In this document: positions 14,232 to 31,677 of the stretch, piece by piece
Layout of the letters: each line of letters opens with the position of its first letter
Numbering within the stretch: position 1 is the stretch's first letter
Virus record (IMG/VR): IMGVR_UViG_3300033052_000131
Location: 1-35,379 of that record
Reading direction: 5' to 3' (one strand)
Source: a virus
Length of the DNA: 35,379 nt
Program-made: the position numbers and the translations under genes
The notes under the pieces: generated by a model
What the model was told of the DNA's origin: nothing
The model's input: only the letters and a program-made list of their open reading frames with translations
The model's database searches: none

Positions 14232-14255
14232 TCTCAGTTTTCCGAGAAATGAGAC
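14232..14255. promoter_or_regulatory. late-module palindrome, copy 1
   Basis: TCTCA, a 13-base centre holding TTCCGAGAA, and TGAGAC directly follow the TAA of the Mor-family gene and precede the gpW-like and portal genes. Copies 2 and 3 lie at 18433 and 31557. Eleven bases beyond TGAGAC is a weak -10-like TACCGT (14267-14272) that would start transcripts at about the next ATG. Confidence 0.75.
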
Positions 14256-14278
14256 AGTCATGTCGCTACCGTTAGCGC

Positions 14279-14491
14279 ATGGCTATCTCTCAACATGACC
14301 TTGACGCGCTCGATGCCGCGATCACCTCTGGCGCAAAGTCGGTGACGTTCGATGGCCGCACCGTCGTCTACCAAAGCACTGCGGAAATGATCGAGGCGCG
14401 GGAGCACGCTGCCCGCGTTATCAACGGCAGTTTGCAAAACCGCGGCCCGCGCGTGTTCCGGTTCGGATTCACCACCCACAGGGGCGACTGA
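14279..14491 (+). CDS. gpW-like head-tail joining protein
   Basis: This 70-residue protein fits the size and position of lambda gpW, between the large terminase and the portal. It has a helical start (ISQHDLDALDAAITSGAKSV), a short strand pair (VTFDGRTVVYQST) and a second helix, the order expected for the gpW fold, and ends in a Gly/Arg/Phe-rich tail. gpW joins the connector so that tails can attach. No Shine-Dalgarno sequence precedes the ATG; with the weak -10 at 14267 the message could begin right at the start codon. Its TGA overlaps the portal ATG by one base. Confidence 0.7.
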   Translation: MAISQHDLDALDAAITSGAKSVTFDGRTVVYQSTAEMIEAREHAARVINGSLQNRGPRVFRFGFTTHRGD

Positions 14492-15972
14492 TGCGCAACA
14501 TCATCGATCGCATCATTGGCTACGTGAACCCGCATGCCGGCATCGCCCGGCACTTCGCCCGTCGCCAACTGCAGCGCGCATATGAGGCGGCCAGCCCGCG
14601 CGACACCTGGCGTCCACGCCGCGCCGGCGCGAGCGCCAATGCAGATCACCAAGCGGACGCCCGCACGCTGCGCGTGAAGGCGCGTGCCCTGGTGCAGAAT
14701 GTCCCCTATATCTGGGCGGGCCTGGACGGCTTGGTCGCGGCCACCGTCGGCGAGGGAATCGTTCCCCGCGCGACCGGGCCGGAGCGGGTGCGGATCAACC
14801 AGCTGCTCAAGGATTGGTGGAAGGTGTGCGACGCCGATGGCCGCTTCGACTACTTCGGCTTGATCAAGGCCGCATACTGGGCCATGGAGCAGGACGGCGA
14901 GGTGCTGGTGCGCAAGCGCACACGCCGCGCCTCCGATGGCTTGCCTGTGCCGCTTCAGCTTCAGCTGCTTGAGATCGACTGGCTCGACAGCGCCCGCTCG
15001 GGCACGCTCAATGGCAACCAGATCGTCAACGGAATCGAGTACGACATGCTGGGCGCTGTCGCCGCGTACTACCTGTGGGACCAGCATCCGGGCGATATCG
15101 CTGTCGCCCGGGGCCGGGCGCAAAGCCAGCGCGTTCCTGCGAACCAGATCATCCACCTCTTCAACCCGGCTCGCCCGGGCCAGGGGCGGGGCTTCACTCG
15201 CCTCGCCCCGGTGATCGCCCGCGTGCGCGACCTGCAGTTGTATGAGGACGCCGAAATCGCGCGAAAGAACCTGGAAAGCCGCTTGTCGGTCCTGGCAAGT
15301 GGGGACATGAATGCGATGGACAATCCGGCGTCGATGGGGGGCGCGGGCGAGGCGCAGGGCGGTGGCGTACGTGACCTGGGCGAGCTGGGCGGCGGCAACA
15401 TCTTCGGGATGCCGAGCGGGCTAAACTTCACCGTCGTCGAGCCGAAGGCTGCGCCGGGCTACGTGGAGTACGTCAAGTTTGCCCTGCACCTGATCGCCGC
15501 CGGTATCGGCGTTCCGTACCATTTGATGACGGGTGATCTGAACCAAGTCAATTTCAGTGGCGCGCGGGTGCGCATCCTGGACTTCCGCCGTTCGGTACGG
15601 CAGATGCAATGGCTGACCCTCATTCCCAAGCTGTTGGTCCCGATCCACGACGCCTTTGTCGAACATGCGTACCTGGCACGCCTGATCAAGGTGGCCGACA
15701 AGGCGGTCGACTTCAGCCCGCCCAAGTGGGACTACGTCAATCCGGAACAAGAAGTGAAGGCCGACCAGGCCGAGATCGCGGCTGGCCTGTGCAGCATCAG
15801 CGAGAAGATCCGCCAGCGCGGCTACGACCCGGAAGTCGTCCATGCTGAGATGAAGGCCGATATCGACCGGCTGCGCGAAATGGGCATTCTGGATGTGGTG
15901 CTATTCATGCAGCGTGGCAACCTCCCGACCACCGGCAACGGCAAGGATGACGGTGCTGCCCAGCCCGCATGA
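14491..15972 (+). CDS. portal protein, lambda family
   Basis: A 493-residue portal of the lambda gpB family. It opens with a short basic leader and the typical RQLQRAYEAASPRDTWRP block, then ADARTLRVKARALVQNVPYI and a loop (GEGIVPRATG), and later PYHLMTGDLNQVNFSGARV and the conserved RRSVRQMQW stretch. The dodecameric portal forms the head vertex through which DNA enters. Length is slightly below lambda gpB (533). No protease domain follows it directly, unlike lambda where gene C comes next; here the protease is fused to the capsid protein further on. Confidence 0.94.
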   Translation: MRNIIDRIIGYVNPHAGIARHFARRQLQRAYEAASPRDTWRPRRAGASANADHQADARTLRVKARALVQNVPYIWAGLDGLVAATVGEGIVPRATGPERVRINQLLKDWWKVCDADGRFDYFGLIKAAYWAMEQDGEVLVRKRTRRASDGLPVPLQLQLLEIDWLDSARSGTLNGNQIVNGIEYDMLGAVAAYYLWDQHPGDIAVARGRAQSQRVPANQIIHLFNPARPGQGRGFTRLAPVIARVRDLQLYEDAEIARKNLESRLSVLASGDMNAMDNPASMGGAGEAQGGGVRDLGELGGGNIFGMPSGLNFTVVEPKAAPGYVEYVKFALHLIAAGIGVPYHLMTGDLNQVNFSGARVRILDFRRSVRQMQWLTLIPKLLVPIHDAFVEHAYLARLIKVADKAVDFSPPKWDYVNPEQEVKADQAEIAAGLCSISEKIRQRGYDPEVVHAEMKADIDRLREMGILDVVLFMQRGNLPTTGNGKDDGAAQPA

Positions 15973-16023
15973 CGCGGGTCGCAGACCGCGTGATGACGCT
16001 CAAACTAAATTTAAGGAAGAACT

Positions 16024-16443
16024 ATGGCGCAGCAATTTTCCGTGGCGGTGCGAAACGCCCGTCTTGACGCGATCGAGCAGACTATTGGCGCATCGCCAAA
16101 GCTACGTTTCTACAGCGGAGGCCAGCCGGCCAGCTGCGCTGCAGCGCGCTCAGGCACGCTGCTTGCCGAGCTGGCCCTGCCGTCCGACTGGATGGCTCAG
16201 GCCGCAAATGGCTCGAAAGCGTTCGCTGGCAGCTGGTCCGGCGCGGGTGCCGCAGCGGCAGGCGCAGGCACGAACATCGGCCATTTCGCCATCATGGACA
16301 CGACCGGCACCACCTGTCACCACCAGGGCAAGGTCGGCGTTAACGGCGATGCCACGGCCGACATGACGGTCGACAACCTGAACCTGGCACAAGGCCAGGC
16401 GATCTCGGTTACCGCATTCACGCTGACTGATGCGAACGCCTGA
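16024..16443 (+). CDS. head-associated protein of unknown role, 139 aa
   Basis: An Ala/Gly/Thr-rich, probably all-beta protein, MAQQFSVAVRNARLDAIEQT at its start, then alternating strands and NINLA-like repeats near the end (DNLNLAQGQAISVTAFTLTD). Proteins of this build are common next to head genes in Gram-negative siphophages and are usually unnamed; decoration or stabilisation of the shell is plausible. It has a good AAGGAAG ribosome site eight bases before the ATG, the first clear one after the portal, and is joined to the next gene by a TGATG overlap. Confidence 0.7.
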   Translation: MAQQFSVAVRNARLDAIEQTIGASPKLRFYSGGQPASCAAARSGTLLAELALPSDWMAQAANGSKAFAGSWSGAGAAAAGAGTNIGHFAIMDTTGTTCHHQGKVGVNGDATADMTVDNLNLAQGQAISVTAFTLTDANA

Positions 16444-16820
16444 TGAAGCGTTATTACCTGACGGACATCCTGGGCACCGGGCAGGCAGACGTCGACGAGT
16501 TCCGTCCCGTGCCCGCTGAATATCGGGCCAACTTCTCCTGGTCGATGCCATCGGATGCAAACGGTATGCCGCTGAATAATTGGGGGCTGGTTGAGGTCAC
16601 CGCAGCAAGCGACGCTGTGCTGGCCGTGATGGCCGCAGATCCGCGCCTCGACGCGCTGCCGTTCGTGGTGCGCGAAACCCTGGTGGCCGAGATCGACCCC
16701 ACAGCGGCTGCCGCGATGCGTGATGCGCTGGCGCGCCGCAGGATTGACGTCGACTTTACGAGCGCGGCGACCTTCGGCGAAATCCTCGACAACATCACCT
16801 GGCGCTCCAACCACCCATAA
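16443..16820 (+). CDS. hypothetical phage protein, 125 aa
   Basis: The product starts MKRYYLTDILGTGQADVDEF and has a compact alpha/beta look: an ordered N-terminal half with PSDANGMPLNNWGLVEVTA, a middle reading ADPRLDALPFVVRETLVAEI, and a helical end (AAMRDALARRRIDVDF). I have seen such genes in head regions of betaproteobacterial phages but know no function. It overlaps the preceding gene by one base and stops three bases before the lectin-like gene, so the three are probably one translational unit. Confidence 0.65.
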   Translation: MKRYYLTDILGTGQADVDEFRPVPAEYRANFSWSMPSDANGMPLNNWGLVEVTAASDAVLAVMAADPRLDALPFVVRETLVAEIDPTAAAAMRDALARRRIDVDFTSAATFGEILDNITWRSNHP

Positions 16821-16823
16821 AAC

Positions 16824-18239
16824 ATGGCGACCCCGCTTTTTCTCGACGCGTTTGATGGCCCGGATAACCAGTTCCTGGAATCATATTCTGCGAACTGGGT
16901 GAAGTCGACTAGCCAGGCTGGCAGAGCGATGCTGCTCGGTGGTCGCGTCTACCAGAGCACCACTGACAACGCGGTTTATTGCCGTGGCGACGTACAGCCG
17001 CCGACGGCCGACTACGACGTCAGTGCCTCACTGTATTTCGCCAGCGGAAGCGGAACGCCTTCCGTTGGGGTTTGCGGCCGAATGGCCGGACCAGGCGGTG
17101 CGGCAATGACGTTTTACCAGGCCCGAATCGTCAACAATAGCTCCGGTATCGTCCTGGCGCGGTTCATCAATGGGGCGACGGTAACCCTTTCTTCGGTCGC
17201 CTACAGCGCACCCGCTTTCGCTGAGCCGAAGCTGACCCTTCGCATGAAGGGAGACCAGCTCAGTGTTCTGTTGGACGGCGTCGTCGTGGTCGGGCCGATC
17301 ACGGACAGCAACATCACGGATGCCGGATATGCCGGCTTCAGGATGGCGAGCGCGTCCGCAAACCAGATACGCATCGACAACTTCGCGATCGAGCCGATCG
17401 AAGAGAGTGCCGCCTCGATTGCTGCCACGCTGAGCGCGACTCTGGAGCCAGCAGCAATCAGCAGCGCTGCTCAGACGGGAGTCAGGGCCGCGCTCTCCAG
17501 CGTTCTGAACTCGGCGACCCTAGCGTCCGTGGCCGCTCTCGCATCGACGGCTGGCTTGACGAAGACCCTGTCGCCGGCCGTGCTCGCAGCCAGCGCCTTC
17601 GTCGAGGCCGAGCCGCCTGGTCCAGACGGCATCGAAGGATCCCTATCGAAAATATTAGCCGGCGCCAAGCTTGCGGCGACGTCCAGCGTGGCGGTCAAGG
17701 GTGCTCTCTCGTCGATCCTCGCTGGCGCGGCGCTCGCGGCAACGGCCAGGACGGCGACAGCGCTCGATATTTCAGAGGTGCATTCGTCTCGCGTCGTCGT
17801 GTTCGGCGGGACTGGAAGCAGGGTGGTGGTGTTCGAAGGAAGTGGTAGCCGGGTCGTCGTATTCGAAGGAAGTGGAAAAAGGATAAGGGTCAAACAGATG
17901 GATGTGAAAGTACCAATCAAGGACGGTTCAAAATGGAAGGTGGACAGGGACCGGGACGAGATCAGCTACTACGCAGCCGATATCACGGACGAACTACGGG
18001 ATCGGAATACGACCGCGGTCCAGAGCGAGGTTGTCGCGCTGCCCTATGGCGTTGAAGTTCTGGAGGAGGCGCAGATTCAGATTGCGACAATCGAAGGTAT
18101 TGAACGCACCTTCGTGGTCGTGAAGCTTGGCGGCGTCGACGGCGAATTACCCGACGACTGGCGTTGGGTCGCGCGAGTGCCCTGCGCGAACGGCGAGCGC
18201 TTCGACAAAACAACTTGGTTCAATGAGGTGGATCCCTGA
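16824..18239 (+). CDS. large head-region protein with lectin-like domain and repeats
   Basis: Residues 1-188 look like a concanavalin/laminin-G-type jelly roll (LFLDAFDGPDNQFLESYSAN, later YQARIVNNSSGIVLARFING and MASASANQIRIDNFAIEP). Residues 190-320 are Ala/Ser-rich with imperfect repeats (SSVLNSATLASVA, SKILAGAKLAATS, SSILAGAALAATA). Residues 322-351 are three tandem copies of SRVVVF(G/E)G(T/S)G. The last 120 residues (MDVKVPIKDGSKWKVDRD onward) look like a separate small phage domain found near head genes. The build, a sugar-binding domain on a long stalk with a short base, suggests a head fibre or decoration protein. Position between portal and capsid genes agrees; sugar binding is inferred. 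Confidence 0.7.
   Translation: MATPLFLDAFDGPDNQFLESYSANWVKSTSQAGRAMLLGGRVYQSTTDNAVYCRGDVQPPTADYDVSASLYFASGSGTPSVGVCGRMAGPGGAAMTFYQARIVNNSSGIVLARFINGATVTLSSVAYSAPAFAEPKLTLRMKGDQLSVLLDGVVVVGPITDSNITDAGYAGFRMASASANQIRIDNFAIEPIEESAASIAATLSATLEPAAISSAAQTGVRAALSSVLNSATLASVAALASTAGLTKTLSPAVLAASAFVEAEPPGPDGIEGSLSKILAGAKLAATSSVAVKGALSSILAGAALAATARTATALDISEVHSSRVVVFGGTGSRVVVFEGSGSRVVVFEGSGKRIRVKQMDVKVPIKDGSKWKVDRDRDEISYYAADITDELRDRNTTAVQSEVVALPYGVEVLEEAQIQIATIEGIERTFVVVKLGGVDGELPDDWRWVARVPCANGERFDKTTWFNEVDP
17787..17876 (+). repeat. three tandem 30-bp repeats in coding sequence
   Basis: Three in-frame units code for SRVVVFGGTG, SRVVVFEGSG and SRVVVFEGSG. Units two and three differ mainly at third codon positions, with TTCGAAGGAAGTGG shared exactly, which points to recent duplication. 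Confidence 0.85.
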
Positions 18240-18418
18240 TGATCAACATTGCTGACAACCAGATCGTGCGGGAGCAGGTCAAGCGGCTTCCGTCGGACTT
18301 GGCGGCGCAGGAAGATAGCAGCGCGCAGACTGCGCAGCCGCCAGTCACGCTGGCATACCCAGCGAAGAGCATGGTCCTCGAAGGCGGACGCTACTACGCT
18401 TCCAAGCCCGAAAAGTAG
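18239..18418 (+). CDS. hypothetical small protein, 59 aa
   Basis: The ATG at 18239 overlaps the stop of the lectin-like gene by one base. The product (MINIADNQIVREQVKRLPSD) has a charged helix, a disordered Ala/Gln/Pro middle and a C-terminal segment (KSMVLEGGRYYASKPEK). I do not recognise it. It is the last gene before the second palindrome and the capsid gene, so it likely ends this transcriptional unit. It is missing from long-frame lists because of its length, but the tight coupling supports it. Confidence 0.6.
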   Translation: MINIADNQIVREQVKRLPSDLAAQEDSSAQTAQPPVTLAYPAKSMVLEGGRYYASKPEK

Positions 18419-18432
18419 CGCGGCCGAAAAAT

Positions 18433-18459
18433 TGTCTCAGTTTTCCGAGAATTGAGACA
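18433..18459. promoter_or_regulatory. late-module palindrome, copy 2
   Basis: TGTCTCA and TGAGACA, seven-base arms, flank a 13-base centre with TTCCGAGAA. Centre to next ATG (18483) is 37 bases. Eleven bases beyond TGAGAC is TAGAGT (18470-18475), a -10-like box whose start would fall at about 18482, next to the ATG. No Shine-Dalgarno is seen there. Confidence 0.78.
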
Positions 18460-18482
18460 GTGCAATACGTAGAGTGGGCTGC

Positions 18483-20546
18483 ATGACGACGCCCACTACT
18501 ACCCCGCAAACCCGCTCGGCAACCGATCCGCGCAACATGCCGTCGCTCTCCCGCGAAGCACAGTTGGTGCCGACCACCTACAACGAAGCCGACAACACGA
18601 TCGAAGTAGTGTGGACGACCGGCTCGCGGGTCCGACGCTATGACTGGTGGACCGACAAGCCGTACGAGGAGGAATTGGCTGTCACGCCGGAAGCCGTTGA
18701 CATGACGCGCTTCGACGCCGGTACTGTCCAGGTCATCGACAACCACCGCATGCACGGCGGCGTCCAGTCGATCATCGGCATCGCGATCAGCGGCACCATC
18801 GCCAATGGCGAAGGCCGCGCCGTGCTGCGGCTGTCGACGCGCCCGGAGATGGCTGGCATTGTCGCCGATATCAAGGCCGGCATCATCCGTTCGATCTCGT
18901 TCGGCTACAACATCACGACCTTCGAGATTACCCGCGCAATCGACCGCACCGATGGCGTGAACATGGACCTCTACCGGGCCGTGCGGTGGCAGCCGTTCGA
19001 AATCAGCTTTGTCACCGTCCCGGCCGACGCCGAGGCCAGCACGCGCAGCGCGCCGGTCAACGGCATGCCGTGCGAATTCATCACCCGGGCGCCCGCCCAA
19101 ACCGCTCCATCCAACCAGGAAGACAACATGCCAACTGCTACCCCTTCGGGCGCCCAGAACCCTGCGCCCGCCGTTACCCGCGCCGCTGATACGGCACATA
19201 CCCCAGGCACCGCGCAGGACGGGGCGCCCGCCGCCGCCGACGCGGCTACCCGTGCTGCTCAAGAAGCGGTGACCCGTGCCGCCGATATCACCGACCTGTG
19301 CGCACGTCACGGCGTCAGCAATCTGGCCGCCGGCCTGATTCGCAGTGGCAATTCGGTCGATCAGGCGCGCAGCGCAGTGCTGGACGAGCTGGCCCGCAAC
19401 GATGCGGCCCGCGGTGGCCACCAGAACGTGCGCGTGCAGCTGATCGGCAGCGAGCACGAGACCCGCATGGCCGGCATGGAGGAAGCGATCATGCACCGCG
19501 TCTATTCCGGCGCCAAGCTGACCGACAATGGTCGCCAGTACCGTGGCATGGGCCTGCTGGAAATTGGCCGCGAGTTCCTCGAATCGGCTGGCGTCAACAC
19601 GCGCGGCATGGACCGTATGCGCCTGGCGCAGCAGATCCTGCATTTCCGCTCGGGCATGCATGGCACCAGCGACTTCGCTAACCTGTTTGCGAACGTTGCC
19701 AACAAGCGCATGCGCGCCGGCTACGAGGAAAACCTCGGCACCTACACCCAGTGGGCTCGCCGCGCGCCGAACGCCCCCGACTTCAAGAACATCAGCATCG
19801 TCCAGCTTTCGACTGCGCCGCAGCTGCTCCAGACCAATGAGCACGGCGAGTTCAAGTACGGCACGATGAAAGATGGTGGTGACAACTACAAGCTGGTGAC
19901 CTACGGCCGCATGGTGTCGCTGTCCCGCCAGGCCATCGTCAACGACGACCTGCGCGCTTTCGAACGCCTGGTCACCGCGTTTGGCGCGAGCTCCAGCCGC
20001 CTGGAGAACCGCCTGGTGTACAGCCAGCTGGCCGGTAACCCGATGATGGGCGACGGTAAGGAGTTGTTCGATGCTGCACATAAGAACAGTGGCTCGGGCG
20101 CCGGCTCGGCACTGACCCTGGCGGCGCTGAAGGCAGGCCGTACGGCGATGCGCCTGCAGAAAGGCCTCCAGGATGAGGAGCTGAACCTGGCGCCAAACTT
20201 CCTGATCGTGCCGGCATCGCTGGAGCAGGATGCCTACCAACTGACCAGCTCGAACTTTGTGCCGGCCAAGCAGAGCGACGTGAACGAATTCCGCACCGGC
20301 GGCCGCACCGCGGTCGAACCGATCGTCGAGCCGATCCTCGATTCGATCGATGACGCGGCGTGGTACCTGGCAAGTAGCAACAGCCAGATCGACACCGTCG
20401 AGTACTGCTACCTGGATGGTGCTGAAGGCCCGGTCATCGAGAGCGAAGCCGGCTTCGAAGTCGATGGCGTTACCTGGAAGTGCCGCCTGGACTTCGCAGC
20501 CAAGGCCGTGGATCACCGCGGCCTGTACAAGGGCGCTGGCAAGTAA
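18483..20546 (+). CDS. prohead protease fused to major capsid protein
   Basis: A 687-residue fusion. Residues 40-190 are a U35-type (HK97-like) prohead protease with H88 in VIDNHRMHGG and the serine in RSISFGY (S139 likely). A low-complexity Ala/Pro/Thr linker (about 195-260) is followed by a helical scaffold-like region (about 265-370), then an HK97-fold capsid domain (from about 400: ISIVQLSTAPQLLQTNEHGE ... AGRTAMRLQKGLQDEELNLA). The protease would cut itself and the scaffold away during maturation. This one-gene arrangement replaces separate C, Nu3 and E genes of lambda. GTG at 18474 is an in-frame alternative start. The gene follows palindrome copy 2. Confidence 0.92.
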   Translation: MTTPTTTPQTRSATDPRNMPSLSREAQLVPTTYNEADNTIEVVWTTGSRVRRYDWWTDKPYEEELAVTPEAVDMTRFDAGTVQVIDNHRMHGGVQSIIGIAISGTIANGEGRAVLRLSTRPEMAGIVADIKAGIIRSISFGYNITTFEITRAIDRTDGVNMDLYRAVRWQPFEISFVTVPADAEASTRSAPVNGMPCEFITRAPAQTAPSNQEDNMPTATPSGAQNPAPAVTRAADTAHTPGTAQDGAPAAADAATRAAQEAVTRAADITDLCARHGVSNLAAGLIRSGNSVDQARSAVLDELARNDAARGGHQNVRVQLIGSEHETRMAGMEEAIMHRVYSGAKLTDNGRQYRGMGLLEIGREFLESAGVNTRGMDRMRLAQQILHFRSGMHGTSDFANLFANVANKRMRAGYEENLGTYTQWARRAPNAPDFKNISIVQLSTAPQLLQTNEHGEFKYGTMKDGGDNYKLVTYGRMVSLSRQAIVNDDLRAFERLVTAFGASSSRLENRLVYSQLAGNPMMGDGKELFDAAHKNSGSGAGSALTLAALKAGRTAMRLQKGLQDEELNLAPNFLIVPASLEQDAYQLTSSNFVPAKQSDVNEFRTGGRTAVEPIVEPILDSIDDAAWYLASSNSQIDTVEYCYLDGAEGPVIESEAGFEVDGVTWKCRLDFAAKAVDHRGLYKGAGK

Positions 20547-20582
20547 GCCGGCTCGGTCACCACCTATCACGGAAACCACATC

Positions 20583-20915
20583 ATGAAGAACTTCATTCAG
20601 CCCGGCAAGGTCGTCACCGTTACTGCGCCTGCAAACCTCGTCAGCGGCCAAGGCGCTCTGGTAGGGGCAATCTTCGGCGTCGCTGCGACCGATGCGTTGC
20701 AGGGCGCTCCCGTCGAAATCGTCCGCGAGGGCATCTTTGCCCTGGGTGCGGTCACGGCCGACACCCTCGTCACCGGCGAGAAGGTGTACTGGGACAACAC
20801 CGCGAAGCGGATCACCAAGATCGCGACCAACAACGTCCTGGTCGGCGCGGCGGCTGCTCCCAAGAGCGGCACCGAAACCAGCGCAACCGTGCTGCTCGAC
20901 GGCGTGATCCGCTAA
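20583..20915 (+). CDS. capsid cement protein (DUF2190-like)
   Basis: This 110-residue protein has the DUF2190 pattern: an opening PGKVVTVTAPANLVSGQGAL, the middle FGVAATDALQGAPVEIVREG, then KVYWDNTAKRITK and a final ATVLLDGVIR. Members are trimeric decoration (cement) proteins that bind the mature shell and lock it. Length is usual for the family. It sits directly behind the capsid gene after a 36-base gap, in the place of lambda gpD. A weak GGAAA ribosome site precedes the ATG. Confidence 0.88.
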   Translation: MKNFIQPGKVVTVTAPANLVSGQGALVGAIFGVAATDALQGAPVEIVREGIFALGAVTADTLVTGEKVYWDNTAKRITKIATNNVLVGAAAAPKSGTETSATVLLDGVIR

Positions 20916-20924
20916 GCCGCCACC

Positions 20925-21221
20925 GTGAATTTCGCCAACCTCGAAGCCGTCGCCAACAGCATGGTGCTGAACCACCTGGCAAACGTCCAGGTGGAGATCG
21001 GCGGCGTGCTGGTGCCCGGCGTCTTCCGCAAGCCAAGCTCGACCGACTCTCTCGGATTTGGCGCGGCCAATACCAGTCCATCGGTCCAGGTGGCTTCGAA
21101 CGCCGTGATGGCCGAGCCTGTAGGAAAGCGGATCTCGATCGCTGGCGTGCCGTACGTGATCGTGGAAGATCAGCCGGACGGTACGGGCCTGACCAACTTG
21201 ATCGTCGAGTGCACGCAGTGA
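20925..21221 (+). CDS. head-tail attachment protein (gpFII-like)
   Basis: The 98-residue product starts at a GTG (NFANLEAVANSMVLNHLA) nine bases after the cement gene. A helical N-terminus is followed by a beta-rich part with GVLVPGVFRKPSSTDSLG and AGVPYVIVEDQPDGTGL, a layout shared with lambda gpFII and related head-tail joiners, which attach the tail to the gpW-capped portal. Position between cement and tail-terminator genes fits. Its stop overlaps the next gene (GTGA). Family call is from pattern and order. Confidence 0.7.
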   Translation: MNFANLEAVANSMVLNHLANVQVEIGGVLVPGVFRKPSSTDSLGFGAANTSPSVQVASNAVMAEPVGKRISIAGVPYVIVEDQPDGTGLTNLIVECTQ

Positions 21222-21649
21222 GCACCGCATTCTTCCAAGTGGTCTCGGCCGTGAAAGCAAAGCTGGAGGCGCAGCCGCCCGTGTGCAAGTCGATCCATCG
21301 TGCACGGACGACTCCAGTCCCTGAACAGGAGGTCGAGGCGGTCAACGTGCAGTGGGAGCGGGCGCTACCAGCGCAGGGTGGTATTAAGGGCGCCCCCGTC
21401 GACTGGTCGACCAGTGTCACCGTCGAGTGCTTTGCACGTAGCGTCACCGAGAGCGGTGACGCCGCTGTCGACCCGCTACTCGAGCGCGTCGTCGCGAGGC
21501 TGGCAGAAGACCCAAGCCTCGGCGGTCTGGTGGACGACCTGGTGCTTGCTGGCTTGGAGGCCGAGAACACGGCCGAAGGAAAGAAAACCGGATGGGTGCG
21601 GCTGATCTATGCCGCCGAACATCGTACTTACAACGGCAACCTGAATTGA
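21218..21649 (+). CDS. tail terminator/completion protein (gpU/gpZ-like)
   Basis: The GTG at 21218 overlaps the preceding stop by four bases. The 143-residue product begins STAFFQVVSAVKAKLEAQPP and carries the alternating strand/helix order of tail-terminator proteins: a helix, a strand block (SVTVECFARS), then a long helix (VDPLLERVVARLAEDPSLGG) and a final strand pair. Such proteins form a ring that ends tail growth and joins the head. gpZ-type completion proteins have the same position, so the exact counterpart is open. Confidence 0.68.
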   Translation: MSTAFFQVVSAVKAKLEAQPPVCKSIHRARTTPVPEQEVEAVNVQWERALPAQGGIKGAPVDWSTSVTVECFARSVTESGDAAVDPLLERVVARLAEDPSLGGLVDDLVLAGLEAENTAEGKKTGWVRLIYAAEHRTYNGNLN

Positions 21650-21651
21650 TC

Positions 21652-21816
21652 ATGAAGACCGATAACGATCTCGAAAAGAAACCCGTCGCAGCCACGCCGG
21701 CTCGCGACATCCCTCCACCGCCAGGCGGCGGTCAATGGCGCTTCGACGACGTGCGCTGGGAGTGGATCGACATCAACCCGCAGCCGGAACCGGCCGCTCA
21801 CCCGAACCAGGAGTAA
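21652..21816 (+). CDS. hypothetical small protein, 54 aa
   Basis: A very polar, Pro-rich protein (MKTDNDLEKKPVAATPARDI) with one short ordered segment, GGGQWRFDDVRWEWIDINP, that carries three tryptophans. It fits exactly between the tail-terminator and tail-tube genes (two- and three-base gaps). Similar small Trp-containing proteins occur at this position in phages, without known function. A role in tail assembly is possible by position. Confidence 0.6.
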   Translation: MKTDNDLEKKPVAATPARDIPPPPGGGQWRFDDVRWEWIDINPQPEPAAHPNQE

Positions 21817-21819
21817 TCG

Positions 21820-22782: not shown

Positions 22783-22810
22783 CGAATTACTCACACTGAA
22801 AGGAAACGCG

Positions 22811-23505: not shown

Positions 23506-23517
23506 GGAATAGAGACG

Positions 23518-26500
23518 ATGGCAACGCCACGCGCACTTATTGAAATGGTTGTCGATGGCGCCGCTGAAAGTCGGCGCAGGATCGTAACCGTGAGTGACGC
23601 GCTGCGGCAGATGAACAACGAGTCGTTGCAGCGCATCTCTGGCCAGATCGGGGACTTGGGCGACCGCTACTCCAACCTCCAGTCAACCATCGGGAACGTG
23701 GCCGGCTTTGCAATCGCGGGCATTTCGCTCGCTACGCTTGGCGCGAAGATTGGCCAAGTGATGAATTCGATGGGTGAGCTGGACGATCTATCGCAGAAGA
23801 TCGGCACCAGCGTCGAGAGCCTGTCGCGCATTCAAAAGGTGGCGCAAGCGTTTGGGGTCGACTTCGCTAGTAGCGTAGATCCTGCGCTCGTGAAACTGGC
23901 GCGTGGCCTTACGACCGTCGATGAGAAATCGAGCAAAACGGGAAAGGCACTTGCCGCCATCGGAATTTCTGCGAAGGACGCCGCTGGCAATCTGCGCGAC
24001 CCGAGCGATGTGATGGTGGATGTTGCCAAACGGCTTCAGGACTATGAGGACGGCGCTGCGAAAGCGGCGATCGTTACAGATCTGTTCGGCAAGTCAGGTG
24101 CCGACTTGCTCCCATTCTTCAACGACCTGGCCGATAACGTGGACGGTTTCTCCACCACCTCGGCGGAGGCGGTAGCCCAGGCATCGGCGCTGCAGGACAA
24201 GATGGGTATGCTTGGTGTCCGCACGAACGAAGTGTTCACCTCGATCCTCACGGCTGCATTGCCCGCGATGACCGACCTTGCTGACGGTTTCTCCGACGTG
24301 CTCCGGGCGGAAGACGGTCTAGTGAACAGCGGTGAGATCGCAGGTTGGGCGGACGATCTCGCGGTTGGCCTGGCGCGTGTAGCTGATGTCGCAGTGCTAC
24401 TGCCTCGAACTTTCTCGGCAGTATCGAGTAGCTTCAAGGTCGTCGCGGCAGACCTCGATCTCGCTTGGGCAGCGACGCCAGCAAATATGGCAAGGAAGCT
24501 ATTGAGCGGTGGCTCGCCTCTCAAGGATATCAAAGACGCCGCTGCCGAGCGAAATGCGATCCTTGAAGACGCCAACCGAAAGTACGACGACCTCTGGAAT
24601 AAGCCGGCAAACCAGTTTGAGCAGGCGGTCCTGAAGCGTATTGCGAGTCGAGTCGGCGATGCCATTGGGTCAGACGACGTGACCGACCAGCCGAAAAAAA
24701 CGCTTGGTTACAAGGGCGGCGACGAAGAGTCAAAGGATGCTGAACGGCAGGCCGATGCATACGCGAACCTCATGCGCGCCATCCAGGCAAAGATCGCCCA
24801 AACCAGGATCGAGATTAATAGCAGTGCGCCACTGGCGGCCAGCCAGCAGGAGCAGATCAACCTCGCGCAGCAGCTGGCTGCGATGAAGGCAAAGCTGAGC
24901 CCGGTCCAGCGCGCGCACGTCGACATGATGATCCAAGAGTACGTCACCAACCTGGAGGTCATCGAATCGAATAAGCGCGCCGAGGAAGGCTTCACAAGCT
25001 GGAATAAGACCCGCACCGAATACGCCGCTGCCGCGGCCAAGACGATCCAGGATGCGGAGACGGAAGCGAGCCGCAACGAAGAACTGGCGCGCACTTTCGG
25101 CAAGACCCGAAGCGAGATCGCTTCGCTCGAACTCGCGCGCCTAGAGGAGCAGCTGGCCCAGCGCGCATCGACCGGGCTCACGCTCGACGAGATCGAGAAC
25201 CTGGAAAAGCTGATCGCCGCGAAGAAGCGCAGCTCAGCGGCCCTGAGCAGTGTCGAGACGATGGAAGCCGGCAGGAAGGCGGCCGAGTCGCTGGACGAGT
25301 TCCTGGACCCGGCGAAGGCGCAGACCTTTGGCGAGGCGCTGCGCGAATCCCTAGGCGGGGCCGGCACGGCATTGTCCGCGTTGACCGCCTCGCTGGACGG
25401 CTTCGGCAAGCGTCAGGCTGAGATCGACGAGCAGCGGAAGAACGCGGCCCTGGCCCTCGCCACCGGCCAGCGTACCGAAATGCAGAACCTGCAGGACCTG
25501 GCGCGCCTCAACGAGATGGAAGCCAAGAACAGGATGCAGGGTTACGGCGACATGGCGGGTGCTGCGGCCGGCTTCTTTGGCGAGCAGAGCCGCGGCTACC
25601 AAACGCTGATGACGGTCTCCAAGGTCTTTCATGCCGCCGAGCTGGCGATGACGATGGCCGAGCTGGTGCCGAAGGGCATCGCGGCGGTCCTCAACCAGGG
25701 CAGCGGCGACCCTTACACGGCCTTCGGCCGGATGGCGGCGATGGCCGCCGTCGTCGCCGGCCTGGGCGTCGCCATCGGCGGCGTGTCCGGCGGCGGCATG
25801 AGCCTGTCGGAGTCCCGGCAGAAGTCGCAGGGCACCGGCACCGTGCTGGGCTCGGACGCTAAGTCCGACTCGATCGCACGCGCACTCTCGCAGATCGAGC
25901 AGTCGACGCAGGACAACCTGGGCGTCAGCAACGAGATGCTGATCTCGCTGCGCAACATCGAGTCGGGCATCGGCCAGTTCGCCTCGCTACTGGTGCGCAC
26001 CACCGGCGTGACCGGTGACTTTGGATCAGAGTACAACAAGGACGTCTTCGACGCGAAAGCGATCGGGATCGGTGGCGCCCTCGGTGGCGGCGTGCTGGGA
26101 GCAATGGGTGGCGCGTACGTTGGCATGGGCACCAGCCAGATCGGCATGCTGCTTGGCGGCCCGGTCGGCATGGCCTTGGGTGCTGCCCTCGGCGCGGTCA
26201 TCGGAAAGACCTTCATCGGCAAGGCGCTGGGGAGCGTCTTCGGCGGCAAGCAAACCGTCGAGGATACCGGCTTCACCTTCGACCCGACGAACTTCTCCAG
26301 CATCGCCGCGGGCTCGCTCGCCGCCATGCAGTACGCCGACATCAAGAAAGACGGCGGCTGGTTCCGTAGCGACAAGACCAGCACCCAAACCGCGCCGCTC
26401 GGCGCGGAGGGCAATCGCCAGATCACCGGCGTCCTCCTGTCCCTGTACGACACTGTGTACGAGGCCGGCCAGATCCTCGGCCTGGGCGCCGACAGCTTCA

Positions 26501-28467
26501 ACGCGCAGCTCAGCCAGTTCGTGGTCGACATCGGCAAGGTCAGCCTGAAGGGCAAGACGGACGACGAGATCCAGAAGGAACTGTCGGCCGTCTTCTCGAA
26601 GGTCGGCGACAACCTGGCCGCGTTTGGCGTGGCCGGCCTGGAGCAGTTCCAGCAGGTGGGGGAAGGCTACCTGGAAACGCTTGCGCGCGTGGCGTCGAAC
26701 TATGCCGGCCTCGACGCGATCATGGCGTCCATCGGCCGCACGGTCGGCGCTGCCGGCATCGACAGCCTGGCGGCCCGTGAGCGCCTGATCAGCCTGTCCG
26801 GTGGCATCAGCGCGCTGGCCGACCAGGCCGGCACGTTCGCGCAAGAGTTCCTGACCGAGGCCGAGCGCCTGGCGCCAGTCCAGAAGCACGTCGTCGGCCA
26901 ACTGGCCGACATGGGCCTGGCTTGGGTGGACACGCGCGACGAGTTCAAGAACGTCATCCTGGGCATGAACCTGACGACCGAGGCGGGCGCCAAGCAGTAC
27001 ACGTCGCTGATGTCGCTGGCCGAGGCGTTCGCCCAGGTGTACCCGGCGACCGAAGACCTGACCAAGTCGATGCAGGAGATTGTCGACGAGCGCAAGAGCC
27101 TGCAGGACCGGCTCGACGAGATGACGATGACCCGCGAGCAGCTGCTCGCGAAGGAGCGCGCGGCGATCCACGAGAGCAATCTGCCGCTGTGGGACCGCAT
27201 CCAGTCGCTGCAGGCGGAAGCCTCGGCTGCCGAGGCCGCAACCGCGGCGGCGCAGGCGGCGCAGCAGGTGGCCGCCGGCCTGATGGGCAACGTCGACAGC
27301 GCCTTCTCGGTGCTACAGCGCGTGGTCGAGCGCGAGAAGGCGGCGCTGCAATCGCAGATCGCCAACCATACCGAGGCCGCGAACAAGATCCGCGCGGTGT
27401 CGAACAGCCTGCGCAGCACGATTGACGGCATGCGTGGACCCGGTGCGGAGGCGATCGAGCGCGCCCGCGCGCAGTCCGACCTGCGAAGCTTCCTCGAACT
27501 GGCCCGGGCCGGCGGTGGATTGCCGGACGCGGACAAGCTGCAGGCCGTGCTGACCACGCTGTCGCAGGACGCCAGCGACCAGTTCGCTTCGTTCGCCGAT
27601 TACCAAGCCGATTTCTACCGCACCCGCAACGACATGTCCGACCTGGCATCGATTTCGGATAAAGCGCTGACCGTCGAGGAACGCACGCTGGACACGCTGG
27701 AAGACCAGCTGGCGTCGTACGACCAGATGCTGGAACGTGAGCAGGAGCAGATCGACCAGCTCAAGGGGATCAGCACGACCGGGTTGTCGATCCGCGACGC
27801 GATCCTGGCTCTCCACTCGGCGATCCTCGGCGCGAAGGCCAACCCGATCAATGCGGCGGTCTCGTCGATCAGCGATGCGTACCAGAGCGCGCTTGGCCGC
27901 GCCCCGGACGCCGTCGGCCTCGAGTACTGGAAGGGCAGTGCGGCGGCCGGGAACTCGATCTCTGACATCGTCAATGCCATCAGCAATTCGCCGGAGGCGA
28001 AGATCAAGGCGCTCTACAAGTCGACTTTCGGCCGCGACGCTGATGCAGCGGGCCTGCAGTACTGGATGGGACGTGCGGCAGCTGGCGTCTCGTACGACAC
28101 CATCGAGCAAGGCCTCAAGGAAAGCGACGAGTTCAAGAAGAAGCAGACGATTCCAGGCTATGCAGCTGGTGGTGATCACTCGGGCGGCTGGAGGATCGTG
28201 GGCGAGAACGGGCCTGAGCTGGAGGCCACTGGCCCAGCCAGGATTTTTAATGCGGGCCAGACGCGCGACCTCATGGCTCGCTTAGGCAGTCCGGTCGACA
28301 ACTCTGCCGCCCTGGCCGAGGAGGTCCGTCAGCTGCGCACGCAGAACGATGCGCAGCAGAAGGCGCTGGATCGGGCGCTTCTCGCCGTCGCGAAGTATTC
28401 GAAACAGACCGCTGACTTGCTTGATCGGTGGGAAAAGATTGGCTCGCCGAAGGAACGCCTGCAATGA
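23518..28467 (+). CDS. tape measure protein with C-terminal DUF4214-like repeats
   Basis: The 1649-residue protein sets tail length. Order: helical start (MATPRALIEMVVDGAAESRR); helix-rich region with LDDLSQKIGTSVESLSRIQK to about 660; hydrophobic helices near 680-760 (AAMAAVVAGLGVAIGGVSGG) and a Gly/Ala-rich stretch near 850-910 (GGALGGGVLGAMGGAYVGMG), probably membrane-active; long coiled coils near 1180-1300. At about 1440-1543 two repeats of AYQSALGRAPDAVGLEYWKG / LYKSTFGRDADAAGLQYWMG type resemble DUF4214. A WRIVGENGPELEA motif follows. By the usual 0.15 nm per residue, a tail near 250 nm is expected. It has no obvious lysozyme or peptidase domain. Confidence 0.93.
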   Translation: MATPRALIEMVVDGAAESRRRIVTVSDALRQMNNESLQRISGQIGDLGDRYSNLQSTIGNVAGFAIAGISLATLGAKIGQVMNSMGELDDLSQKIGTSVESLSRIQKVAQAFGVDFASSVDPALVKLARGLTTVDEKSSKTGKALAAIGISAKDAAGNLRDPSDVMVDVAKRLQDYEDGAAKAAIVTDLFGKSGADLLPFFNDLADNVDGFSTTSAEAVAQASALQDKMGMLGVRTNEVFTSILTAALPAMTDLADGFSDVLRAEDGLVNSGEIAGWADDLAVGLARVADVAVLLPRTFSAVSSSFKVVAADLDLAWAATPANMARKLLSGGSPLKDIKDAAAERNAILEDANRKYDDLWNKPANQFEQAVLKRIASRVGDAIGSDDVTDQPKKTLGYKGGDEESKDAERQADAYANLMRAIQAKIAQTRIEINSSAPLAASQQEQINLAQQLAAMKAKLSPVQRAHVDMMIQEYVTNLEVIESNKRAEEGFTSWNKTRTEYAAAAAKTIQDAETEASRNEELARTFGKTRSEIASLELARLEEQLAQRASTGLTLDEIENLEKLIAAKKRSSAALSSVETMEAGRKAAESLDEFLDPAKAQTFGEALRESLGGAGTALSALTASLDGFGKRQAEIDEQRKNAALALATGQRTEMQNLQDLARLNEMEAKNRMQGYGDMAGAAAGFFGEQSRGYQTLMTVSKVFHAAELAMTMAELVPKGIAAVLNQGSGDPYTAFGRMAAMAAVVAGLGVAIGGVSGGGMSLSESRQKSQGTGTVLGSDAKSDSIARALSQIEQSTQDNLGVSNEMLISLRNIESGIGQFASLLVRTTGVTGDFGSEYNKDVFDAKAIGIGGALGGGVLGAMGGAYVGMGTSQIGMLLGGPVGMALGAALGAVIGKTFIGKALGSVFGGKQTVEDTGFTFDPTNFSSIAAGSLAAMQYADIKKDGGWFRSDKTSTQTAPLGAEGNRQITGVLLSLYDTVYEAGQILGLGADSFNAQLSQFVVDIGKVSLKGKTDDEIQKELSAVFSKVGDNLAAFGVAGLEQFQQVGEGYLETLARVASNYAGLDAIMASIGRTVGAAGIDSLAARERLISLSGGISALADQAGTFAQEFLTEAERLAPVQKHVVGQLADMGLAWVDTRDEFKNVILGMNLTTEAGAKQYTSLMSLAEAFAQVYPATEDLTKSMQEIVDERKSLQDRLDEMTMTREQLLAKERAAIHESNLPLWDRIQSLQAEASAAEAATAAAQAAQQVAAGLMGNVDSAFSVLQRVVEREKAALQSQIANHTEAANKIRAVSNSLRSTIDGMRGPGAEAIERARAQSDLRSFLELARAGGGLPDADKLQAVLTTLSQDASDQFASFADYQADFYRTRNDMSDLASISDKALTVEERTLDTLEDQLASYDQMLEREQEQIDQLKGISTTGLSIRDAILALHSAILGAKANPINAAVSSISDAYQSALGRAPDAVGLEYWKGSAAAGNSISDIVNAISNSPEAKIKALYKSTFGRDADAAGLQYWMGRAAAGVSYDTIEQGLKESDEFKKKQTIPGYAAGGDHSGGWRIVGENGPELEATGPARIFNAGQTRDLMARLGSPVDNSAALAEEVRQLRTQNDAQQKALDRALLAVAKYSKQTADLLDRWEKIGSPKERLQ

Positions 28468-30077
28468 TTATTGTTGATCCAGTAGCGCTGGGGGATGCGG
28501 CGTGCATGCGCCCATCCCCCAAATGGGTGTACGACCGAACCGGCACGCTGGTCGAGGTGCCGGCAGATACGCTGGCGGTGACCTACGACCCGTCCGACCT
28601 GAGCAAGGCGCCGTATGCACTGATTGAACCTGAGGCACGGAACGTGCTGACCTACTCAGATGGCTTCAATGCAAATTGGAACCGCCCCGGCTCCGATACG
28701 GCGCCTGGCGCAGGCAGGGGGCCAAACGGACAGATGAGCGCGGTCAAATTGATCGCGCAAGCCTCCTCAGGTCTGCATTATCTTGAGCAAGTCCCAACCA
28801 TCGACGCGGCCAAGACTTACACGCGCTTTTGGTACATCAAGGCTGCCGAAATGCAGAAGGTAGAGTTTTCCATCTATTCGCGTCCGACAACGCAAAGGGT
28901 TGTGATCGCGATATTCGATGCCGGCACCGGAGAACTTGTAGTTGAGACCGCTCGCGGTGAGGCGACTCAATCATTCTCAGCAAAGGCTTTGCCAGATGGG
29001 TGGTGGCGTGTCAGGCAGATTTTCACTCTGGGGGGCACAGACGTGTCGTGCTATTGCCGGGTCGCGCTGCTCGACCAGGTGACGAACAATTCAAGCTTTA
29101 TCGGAGATGGGGCAAGCGGATTGTTCATCTTCGGATCGATGCTGGTCGAAGGTGATCGCGATGAATCGCACATTACGAGCGGCGCTGTACAAGGAATCCG
29201 CGCTGCTGACGTGATCGGCCCGACCGCTGGCCTGATCTATTCGAACGTCCCGATGGTAGAGCCGCCGTACGACGCGGCTGTGACCTATGCAAAGGACGCG
29301 CTTGTTCGCGATCCAGTCACGCACAGTGTGTACCAGTCGCTCATTGACGCGAACAAGGGGAAGCTGCTCACCGATGAGGCTTCGTGGAATGTGCGCGGGA
29401 AGACTAATCGCTGGGCAATGTTCGATGAGTACAACAACACGCAAACCACTAACCCAGAAGAGATCGTCGTTGTCCTGTCGCCGCAATCGATTTGTGAGGG
29501 ACTTTACTTGGGCAATGTGGACGCAGACGAAATCGAGTTGGTCGTTGTTGATCAGTCCGATGGGAAGGTTTATTCGGAAGTTATAAGTCTCGTTACCGCT
29601 AGTGGTAGCAGCAGCTATTACGACTGGTGCTTCCGACCAGCTGACCGCGCCGACTATTACTTCACGGTCGCTATGCCTCCATATGCTGCGGCCCTTGTCA
29701 CCGTAGTGCTGAGGAAGGCAGGTGGCGTGGCCAAATGCGGCATGGCTGCCATCGGTCTCGTGGATGACTTCGGCCCTTCTCTTTATGGGCTGTCCGCGAG
29801 TGGTAAAGATTTCTCCTCCACGACTTTCAATTTCGACGGAACGAGCAAGACACAACTTAGAGATTACGCGAAGCAAATGAATGTTGATGTGCAGGTGAAC
29901 AATGGGGAGATCGACTATATCCAGCGGAAGTTATTTCAATTGCGCCAGCGGCCAATTGTTTGGATCGGTGGTCCATATGGTGCGACGGCTGTTTTTGGTC
30001 GGTACGTGAGTTTCGACATTGTCATTCCCGGACTACTCAAGTCAGACATGTCATTGCAAATTGAAGGAAGTGTATAA
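28464..30077 (+). CDS. tail tip/receptor-region structural protein
   Basis: A 537-residue protein whose ATG overlaps the tape-measure stop (ATGA). Residues 1-60 carry MRPSPKWVYDRTGTLVEVPA; 70-260 look like a carbohydrate-binding-type jelly roll (NVLTYSDGFNANWNRPG, DGWWRVRQIFTLGG); then comes YDAAVTYAKDALVRDPVTHS, a chitin-binding-like mini-domain seen in phage tails, and NRWAMFDEYNNTQTTNPEEI with a second beta domain; the end (GRYVSFDIVIPGLLKSDMSL) resembles a baseplate-type strand domain. I recall this family beside tape-measure genes of siphophages. It would form part of the tail tip. No lambda M, L, K, I or J homologue is seen. Bases are AT-richer than the tape measure. Confidence 0.72.
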   Translation: MIIVDPVALGDAACMRPSPKWVYDRTGTLVEVPADTLAVTYDPSDLSKAPYALIEPEARNVLTYSDGFNANWNRPGSDTAPGAGRGPNGQMSAVKLIAQASSGLHYLEQVPTIDAAKTYTRFWYIKAAEMQKVEFSIYSRPTTQRVVIAIFDAGTGELVVETARGEATQSFSAKALPDGWWRVRQIFTLGGTDVSCYCRVALLDQVTNNSSFIGDGASGLFIFGSMLVEGDRDESHITSGAVQGIRAADVIGPTAGLIYSNVPMVEPPYDAAVTYAKDALVRDPVTHSVYQSLIDANKGKLLTDEASWNVRGKTNRWAMFDEYNNTQTTNPEEIVVVLSPQSICEGLYLGNVDADEIELVVVDQSDGKVYSEVISLVTASGSSSYYDWCFRPADRADYYFTVAMPPYAAALVTVVLRKAGGVAKCGMAAIGLVDDFGPSLYGLSASGKDFSSTTFNFDGTSKTQLRDYAKQMNVDVQVNNGEIDYIQRKLFQLRQRPIVWIGGPYGATAVFGRYVSFDIVIPGLLKSDMSLQIEGSV

Positions 30078-31151
30078 ATGGTCTCAAAATTTACTGATCC
30101 ATCCGAGTTGCCGCACCGGTCGCAGCCGAAGCCAGAATTCGACCGGAAAATGGGGAACTACTTTCGTGACTTACCCGCTTACGCCGCCGAGCTTCGTGCG
30201 CTCGCTGATGAAGTCAGCACTGCGATAAGTCAGGTCAATGCGCTGGCCGCCGGCGGTGCCTACTCGTTCCCGTTCACTTTCGACAGTTCGACCGTAAATG
30301 CAGACCCTGGTGTCGGAAAGCTGCGTTTCAACGCAACCAATCAAAGCGCTGCTGGAGTGATCTATATCGATCATCAGATGGTTGGCGGCGTGAACATCGA
30401 TAGCATCTATGCCGTCCTTGCCGCCGTAACGAGCGCAGTGAAAGGGTCGATCCGCATCGTAAAGCAAACCGACCCATCTCGCTGGGTGCTGTACGACGTG
30501 ACCGGGGCGGTGCCTGGTTCAGGGTTTCGCGGGCTGCCTGTCATTTATCGTAATGGTAGCGGTGGAAATCCGTTTGCCAACGGCGATGCGCTCATGGTGT
30601 TTATCGAACGCAACGGCGACAAGGGTGATACCCCAGTGGGCGGCGCTACTGTGTGCTTGGTTGCGGTGGACTCCATATCCGGCACCGGTACCATCAACTA
30701 TCTGAACCTTTTCAGCGCTGAATACGACAGATACAAGATCCAGCTTATCGAACCGGCCATGTCCACATCGAATGTGAATCTTCACATGCGCTTGGGGGTT
30801 GCAGGGGTGGCGCAGCAAGCCGCCGTCTACAGCGACATGACGACGGGGCAGGGACCTGTGAGCGGAGCAAATACGACTATAGCACTCACGCCAGGGGCCA
30901 CCCTCGCGCAAGGAGCATCCCCCGCTTTTGAGATGGAACTTCTTAACGCGAACGCAACCACCTCCCGTAAAGCTTTGTTCGGGAAAATGCACTGGCGAAG
31001 CTCGGCAGCTAATAATCAAGTAGCCGCGGGGAATGTTGTGGCTGACATTCTGCCCGCGATCAGCGGTTTCCAGATCTACGTGTCCTCGGGAACATTCACC
31101 GGCGGCAAGCTACGCGTATGGGGCTACCGCAATCAAGCAGGAGTTATCTAA
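30078..31151 (+). CDS. tail fibre protein
   Basis: A 357-residue protein with an N-terminal attachment block common in fibres (FDRKMGNYFRDLPAYAAELR followed by a heptad-like ALADEVSTAISQVNAL), a beta-rich body and a C-terminal jelly-roll-like region (YLNLFSAEYDRYKIQLIEPA ... LRVWGYRNQAGVI) as in receptor-binding tips. It likely contacts host surface sugars or proteins. It begins on the base after the stop of the tip protein and shares a TAATG with the next gene. Like its neighbour it is AT-richer than the rest of the late region, suggesting exchange of the host-range module. Confidence 0.75.
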   Translation: MVSKFTDPSELPHRSQPKPEFDRKMGNYFRDLPAYAAELRALADEVSTAISQVNALAAGGAYSFPFTFDSSTVNADPGVGKLRFNATNQSAAGVIYIDHQMVGGVNIDSIYAVLAAVTSAVKGSIRIVKQTDPSRWVLYDVTGAVPGSGFRGLPVIYRNGSGGNPFANGDALMVFIERNGDKGDTPVGGATVCLVAVDSISGTGTINYLNLFSAEYDRYKIQLIEPAMSTSNVNLHMRLGVAGVAQQAAVYSDMTTGQGPVSGANTTIALTPGATLAQGASPAFEMELLNANATTSRKALFGKMHWRSSAANNQVAAGNVVADILPAISGFQIYVSSGTFTGGKLRVWGYRNQAGVI

Positions 31152-31537
31152 TGAGCACCCTTATTCTCGACAGCGGGCAGTACCGCGAAGCGACTCCGGA
31201 AGAACTGGCTGAGATCGAGGCGCGAGCAAACGAGCCGCCTCCGCCGGAAATCCGGCATATGACCGTGCTCGCGTTCCGAAACCGCTTCACAAAGTCGGAG
31301 AAAGTACGTATCGAGCTGGCGGCGATCGACGATCCAGCGGCAGACTTTGCGCAACGCGAGCGTGCAGCTATGGTCCGCGTCGGCCAAGCCGATCTCGCCG
31401 CTGCTACTTATGTGGATGTCGACCGCGCCGGTACTCGGGACGATGTGCAAGCGTTCGAGAGTATGGGGCTGCTCGACTCACCAGGCCGCGCGTTGGCGAT
31501 CCTCGACGATGAGATTCAGCCGCACGAGCGCCCTTGA
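31151..31537 (+). CDS. tail-fibre-linked protein, 128 aa
   Basis: The product begins MSTLILDSGQYREATPEELA, has a Pro-rich linker (NEPPPPEIRHM) and a helical end with TVLAFRNRFTKSEKVRIELA and DVQAFESMGLLDSPGRALA. A similar short protein (LAFRxRFTxxEKVxIExA) often follows fibre genes in Gram-negative phages; whether it is a chaperone or a structural piece is unclear. The ATG overlaps the fibre stop by one base. It is the last gene before palindrome copy 3. Confidence 0.65.
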   Translation: MSTLILDSGQYREATPEELAEIEARANEPPPPEIRHMTVLAFRNRFTKSEKVRIELAAIDDPAADFAQRERAAMVRVGQADLAAATYVDVDRAGTRDDVQAFESMGLLDSPGRALAILDDEIQPHERP

Positions 31538-31556
31538 GCTGAGGAGCCATAGTGTA

Positions 31557-31587
31557 ATCGTCTCATTCTTCCGAGAAATGAGACGAT
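31557..31587. promoter_or_regulatory. late-module palindrome, copy 3
   Basis: The best copy: nine-base arms ATCGTCTCA and TGAGACGAT around a 13-base centre with TTCCGAGAA. It lies in the gap between the tail module and the lysis module. Eleven bases after the common TGAGAC comes GAGACT, a poor -10; TATAAC at 31587-31592 and GCTAAT at 31606-31611 are alternatives. Confidence 0.8.
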
Positions 31588-31677
31588 ATAACCGTGAGAC
31601 TGGGGGCTAATCCCGGTGGCTCATGGCGCGAGAACGCGGTGGAGTGTCATGCCGGGGTATCTGACCACGAGAATAAT

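Follow-up and report, generated by a model that had tools for sequence, protein, structure and literature searches.

How are the late genes for head, capsid and lysis turned on in a lambda-like phage in which no Q gene can be seen? The question is raised by the virus record IMGVR_UViG_3300033052_000131, the whole of which (35,379 nucleotides, with positions counted from its first letter) is called the window here, and in which a palindrome formed by TCTCA, 13 bases and TGAGA precedes each of three late modules, its first copy lying beside a gene of the Mor family. On these grounds an earlier note had proposed an undescribed late regulon, with recombination linkers or RNA hairpins as its alternatives. 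Our analysis makes it very likely that the three dyads are docking sites of a Mor-family late activator for the head, capsid and lysis genes, working by the mechanism that is set out below. The regulon proposal is supported in that the recognition helix co-varies with the arm bases, an A and a T with the spacing of positions -11 and -7 are invariant, and start codons fall where the +1 is predicted. The absence of a Q gene also held, inasmuch as no Q-like protein was found among the proteins scanned, and the open-access literature returned papers on Mor and C of phage Mu, in none of which was this regulon described; neither Mor control of late promoters in a lambda-like phage nor a leaderless late mRNA of a phage was found reported there. 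The putative activator gene and its sites are as follows.

13875 to 14231, + strand: candidate Mor-family activator gene, 118 amino acids (PF08765 above the gathering score; phrog_532; helix in an AlphaFold2 (AF2) model; co-variation of residues 103 and 105)
14232 to 14254, + strand: site 1, putative activator-binding dyad before the head-tail adaptor/portal module (exact match; conserved in relatives)
18435 to 18457, + strand: site 2, putative activator-binding dyad before the capsid module (exact match)
31561 to 31583, + strand: site 3, putative activator-binding dyad before the lysis module (exact match; holin-like genes 3' of the equivalent site in relatives, by reading)

These three exact cores, which share the centre TTCCGAGAA and all lie on the + strand, are the only ones in the window; a search for TCTCANNNTTCCGAGAANTGAGA with up to two mismatches turns up no fourth copy, and one with the reversed control pattern is empty. 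When the arms alone are sought with two mismatches allowed, 10 occurrences are found against 11.8 expected, which is chance level, and the signal therefore resides in three exact arm pairs with a common 9-base centre and, above all, in their recurrence. The count of three in the earlier note was thus correct, as were the three places; its coordinates were wider than the cores, flanking complementary bases having been counted in, and at site 3 the symmetry does reach ATCG...CGAT at 31557-31587. Site 1 begins on the base directly 3' of the TAA of the Mor-family gene, which in turn overlaps the 3' end of the gene for the large terminase subunit, and is followed by a head-tail adaptor gene (phrog_2545) and then the portal; site 2 is followed by a protease-capsid gene, and site 3 by lysis genes including a phrog_3427 holin. 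The reported contact with the stop codon and the position of the copies at portal, capsid and lysis boundaries are both borne out. In relatives, the first gene 3' of site 3 resembles a short membrane (holin-like) protein, by reading only.

The principal evidence comes from those relatives, in which the earlier note had suggested asking whether palindrome and Mor-family protein change together. Homologues were fetched by protein similarity and neighbouring sites were sought by a pattern that left arm bases 2 and 3 unspecified; sites were found beside 139 of the 166 distinct Mor-family proteins, and the answer was positive. Helices of the form [SG]RA[TS] (SRAT, GRAT and SRAS) are paired with TCTCA at 177/177 sites, GRTT with T[CTA]CCA at 11/11, SRRT and SKRT with TG[CAT]CA at 12/12, HRAT, NRAT and HRST with TCGCA at 12/12, and SRVT with TTTCA at 2/2, while single cases pair HRTT with TAGCA/TCGCA, SPVT with TTGCA/TTTCA, and GRTT-VWR with TTCCA/TTTCA. 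None of the 40 sites belonging to substituted helices has TCTCA on both arms. Expressed by residue, A at 105 corresponds to TCTCA, T to TNCCA, R to TGNCA and V to TTTCA, and H or N at 103 to TCGCA; where both the adaptor-side and the capsid-side site of a genome were found, the changed arm type is present on both.

Among the alignment columns of 77 representatives that share less than 80% identity, A105 predicts arm base 2 (z 14.3) and arm base 3 (z 14.8) best, S103 comes second for base 3 (z 8.1), and all remaining columns score about 5 or less. In permutation tests with representatives at 90, 80 and 70% identity, at most 2 of 2000 shuffles attained the observed information. At 60%, where 20 proteins remain, significance is kept by the joint measure and lost for base 2 taken by itself. 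A tree built without the helix columns requires at least 14 arm changes. Its well-supported branches provide five independent pairs, of which 4.9 on average show arm and helix differing together and none shows them differing in opposite directions. The same contrast appears between close kin, as in L145 (GRAT, TCTCA) against L239/L259 (GRTT, TNCCA), L268 (SRAT, TCTCA) against L265 (SKRT, TGACA/TGCCA), and L274 against L275. Such co-variation of residue and base implies contact between protein and DNA.

If the dyad is numbered 1 to 23 and downstream positions are counted onward, with the predicted +1 at position 48, an A at 37 and a T at 41 are present in 119/119 sites collected without any condition on the flank. 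In a wider set, again without such a condition, they occur in 219 of 223 sites; the remaining four are dyads read on the antisense strand, whose opposite strand does conform, so that the rule holds in 219/219 correctly oriented sites. The spacing A-N3-T equals that of -11A and -7T in a sigma-70 -10 element. Aligned in this way, the dyad (5-N13-5) spans about -47 to -25, in the place of the -35 element, with its axis at -36. Beyond these two bases the -10 is a poor one, with 3-4 of 6 matches, and matches to a -35 element at the sites are no better than random. Each site is, as predicted from this arrangement, the upstream half of a promoter, with starts in the window expected at 14279, 18482 and about 31608 (31607-31609). 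An alternative -10 for promoter 3, TATAAC at 31587-31592, was rejected, as it does not keep the spacing. In six relatives (L188, L195, L198, L199, L203 and L235, mostly of the HR type with TCGCA, L188 being additional to these) the centre is one base longer, 14 against 13, and the right arm stands at its usual distance from the -10. The predicted promoter elements and the genes aligned to their starts are these.

14267 to 14272, + strand: predicted -10 element of promoter 1, TACCGT (invariant A 14268, T 14272), by the A37/T41 rule
14279 to 14491, + strand: head-tail adaptor gene (phrog_2545), ATG on the predicted +1 (14279), start offset 24 after the right arm
18470 to 18475, + strand: predicted -10 element of promoter 2, TAGAGT, by the A37/T41 rule
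18483 to 20546, + strand: protease-capsid fusion gene (Pfam Phage_capsid_4 and Peptidase_S78), ATG at the predicted +1/+2
31596 to 31601, + strand: predicted -10 element of promoter 3, GAGACT, by the A37/T41 rule; untranslated leader predicted

Start codons coincide closely with these predictions. At 113 of 118 capsid sites, irrespective of clade and arm type, the capsid gene starts 24-26 bases 3' of the right arm, on or adjoining the predicted +1; the start codon of the adaptor gene lies 24-25 bases away in 90/139 sites, the others belonging mostly to more distant phages with leaders of varying length. Before the adaptor ATG in the window there is no Shine-Dalgarno pairing (duplex energy +1.3), and the weak pairing 5' of the capsid ATG falls upstream of the predicted start, mostly within the -10. 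Since the start codons stand on the predicted +1, the simplest reading is that the capsid mRNA is probably leaderless, and the adaptor mRNA in the window is expected to be so; a transcript start on the start codon is predicted from the position of the -10 alone. Beyond site 3, the leader (31611-31657) has a stem-like sequence, CCCGGTGGCTC...GCCGGG, before the lysis genes, which recurs in L043, L088, L026, L087 and L100; as RNA this leader folds no more stably than shuffled sequences and has no Rfam match.

The gene 5' of site 1 had been assigned to the Mor family by inspection, and the assignment proved sound. Its product scores 33.4 bits against PF08765 (cut-off 24.9; E 4.9e-8) and matches phrog_532, annotated as late transcriptional activator. 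The AF2 model has C-terminal helices at 74-87, 93-100 and 104-112, with a predicted local distance difference test score (pLDDT) of about 90, and its helix-turn-helix aligns to those of Mor (9l0y) and C (9l0x); the recognition helix comprises approximately 104-112, which places S103 just before it and A105 as its second residue. Foldseek returned matches to the model at E of about 0.06-0.09 and none below 0.001. Known phage records hold no close relative, tblastn giving only weak matches of 31-35% identity to Mu-like Mor proteins of Vibrio and Shewanella phages; plasmid records gave no match, nor did a divergent Mor homologue used as query among phages. Likewise, blastn of the packaging and head region found only phages of 60-80% identity, over the terminase, the portal or a structural gene. 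A Tn3 resolvase slightly outscores Mor in a PDB sequence search, with a match limited to the helix-turn-helix region; a resolvase was ruled out, 118 amino acids being too short for the recombinase catalytic domain.

The mechanism that we propose is as follows. The 118-residue protein would be the late-gene activator of a lambda-like phage, its own gene probably being transcribed earlier with the terminase genes, upstream of which there is no such dyad. It would bind the three dyads, presumably as a dimer, S103 and A105 reading arm bases 2 and 3, and when bound at about -47 to -25 it would substitute for the missing -35, allowing host sigma-70 RNA polymerase to initiate at a minimal -10 (xAxxxT). 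Three transcripts would be turned on, one for the head-tail adaptor and portal, one for capsid and tail, and one for lysis, of which the adaptor and capsid transcripts would begin on the ATG or one base before it and would be translated as leaderless mRNAs.

The arrangement is widespread. The exact 19-base pattern occurs in 102 IMG/VR stretches; 13 longer virus contigs each have the general pattern with its -10 bases exactly three times, and the reversed control has no match in any of the virus contigs. Among 13 named host genomes searched with the general pattern including the A and T, 10 carry 2-3 copies each, all on one strand and mostly on a single contig, and the reversed control is near zero; the genomes with the pattern are of 4-8 Mb and mostly Massilia. 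Massilia alkalitolerans DSM 17462, for example, has three sites, all on the same strand. It is because of these hosts that we place the phages in the Burkholderiales. In relatives and in Massilia prophages there are 2-3 dyads per phage, before the same modules as in the window. One PF08765 gene is present on 36 of 46 site-bearing contigs. Of the ten without a match, eight are fragments, a terminase-adaptor junction being found in none of them, one (L061) carries a divergent Mor where it would be expected, and one is the mosaic phage described below. At the junction itself, the Mor frame of L184, L186, L175, L070 and others runs into the dyad, its last codons and stop (SQFSEN*, SQFSGK* and similar endings) being encoded by the palindrome. 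L012, L101, L055, L014 and L021 have unrelated sequence, in some about 1 kb or more, between the Mor stop and site 1, as if cargo genes were inserting just 5' of the promoter.

Mu offers the nearest comparison. The dyad bound by Mor in Mu has 16 bp, with arms of 5 bp and its centre at -43.5, and belongs to a promoter that lacks a -35 (PMC4390567); at the late promoters of Mu, C recognises a related dyad (PMC4287176). Our system resembles Mor and its promoter Pm in belonging to PF08765 and in having a 5-bp-arm dyad in place of the -35, a recognisable -10 and, as proposed, host sigma-70 holoenzyme (PMC4390567, PMC4287176). It differs in that the dyad is of 23 bp (5-13-5) with its axis at -36, a variant geometry and not the Pm type of 16 bp (5-6-5) at -43.5, in the clear sequence match being restricted to the C-terminal half of the protein, and in the proposed control of three late promoters in a lambda-like phage, where Mor controls one middle promoter. 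With Mu C, which acts at the late promoters lys, I, P and mom, it would share phrog_532 and the use of one Mor-family activator for dedicated late promoters, lysis included, although site sequence, spacing and phage type are all different. Taken as a whole, the analysis points to a Mor/C-type late regulon in lambda-like phages of the Burkholderiales, with a geometry unlike that of Mu, in which the protein would both bind and activate. Lambda Q performs the same role, the late switching-on of head and lysis genes, yet Q acts on elongation from one promoter whereas three separate activator-dependent promoters are proposed here. For Mu we know of no leaderless capsid mRNA; lambda cI is an example of a leaderless message. 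As in leaderless mRNAs such as those of Deinococcus-Thermus, the -10 directly adjoins the start codon (PMC12340547); unlike those, the messages predicted here would encode structural proteins of a phage and would need an activator.

Could the palindromes function as RNA, as hairpins in antitermination, processing or translation of a read-through late transcript? Sites 2 and 3 do fold well (-13.7 and -13.9 kcal/mol), as any palindrome would, but the fold of site 1 is weak (-4.1, z -1.0) and the window has no Rfam match. A hairpin requires complementary arms, and in the GRTT class they are non-complementary in 10 of 11 sites, with a mismatch at arm base 2 (for example, TCCCA...TGGAA), as they are in several sites of the SRRT class. 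This disfavours the hairpin, which also leaves the fixed A and T at -11 and -7 and the link to a DNA-recognition helix unexplained, and we give it very little credence. Recombination linkers at module joints, without regulatory role, would account for the location of the dyads at module boundaries, for a mosaic phage in which a lysis module with its site is joined to an unrelated head module, and for the additional sequence that separates Mor from site 1 in certain phages. Linkers, however, predict neither the invariant -10 bases nor the constant distance of 24-26 bases to the capsid ATG, and no link to the helix would be expected of them, yet the arms follow it; we consider this explanation extremely improbable.

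Several observations do tell against a Mor-family activator, and the first leads to a further alternative, that the protein binds the sites and represses the late promoters, for instance by silencing them in the lysogen. The dyad covers the -35 region (-47 to -25), a common position for repressors, from which it could in principle repress, and sequence analysis cannot distinguish activation from repression. Without the protein, however, these promoters, with no -35 above random and 3-4/6 at the -10, offer little to repress; the Mu relatives Mor and C are activators at promoters without a good -35 (PMC4390567, PMC4287176, PMC4461284), and the Mor-family gene adjoins the terminase, in the lytic packaging region. 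We attach hardly any probability to repression. The other adverse points concern co-variation, linkage and structure: L255 (GRST, with S at 105) has mixed arms, TCCCA/TCTCA; there are only five well-supported independent pairs, with which a sign test (p 0.0625) cannot pass 0.05; a 38.9-kb mosaic phage (L088/L377/L378) has a lysis-type site and no detectable Mor, and we count it as a real exception; and the N-terminal half of the protein, the part to be compared with the dimerisation domain of Mor, matches Mor and C loosely (1rr7 and 9l0x over 90-92 residues, root-mean-square deviation 11-12 Å). In the contig of L377/L378 (IMGVR_UViG_3300011624_000029) the site lies at 35982-36022, the lysis module is shared, and the head module is unrelated and apparently HK97-like.

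Were activation by the Mor-family protein correct, a large unstudied group of temperate phages would have a complete late-gene control circuit, comprising activator, sites, promoters and predicted starts. Its natural series of matched activator-site pairs would give access to the DNA-reading code of the Mor/C family, matched but differing pairs could act as orthogonal transcription switches, and the manner in which co-resident prophages avoid switching each other on would be explained. A leaderless capsid mRNA also raises the question of how the most abundant phage protein is made without a Shine-Dalgarno sequence. For the Burkholderiales lineage as a whole, we think it reasonably likely that the recognition code (residues 103/105 against arm bases 2/3) has repeatedly been rewritten together with all the promoters, that late regulons are insulated from one another as a result, and that the leaderless capsid mRNA is lineage-wide.

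At the right end of the window (33629-35379, - strand) there are two reverse-oriented genes, the longer of which we take to resemble a DUF262-type protein; the two may be a cargo or defence pair.

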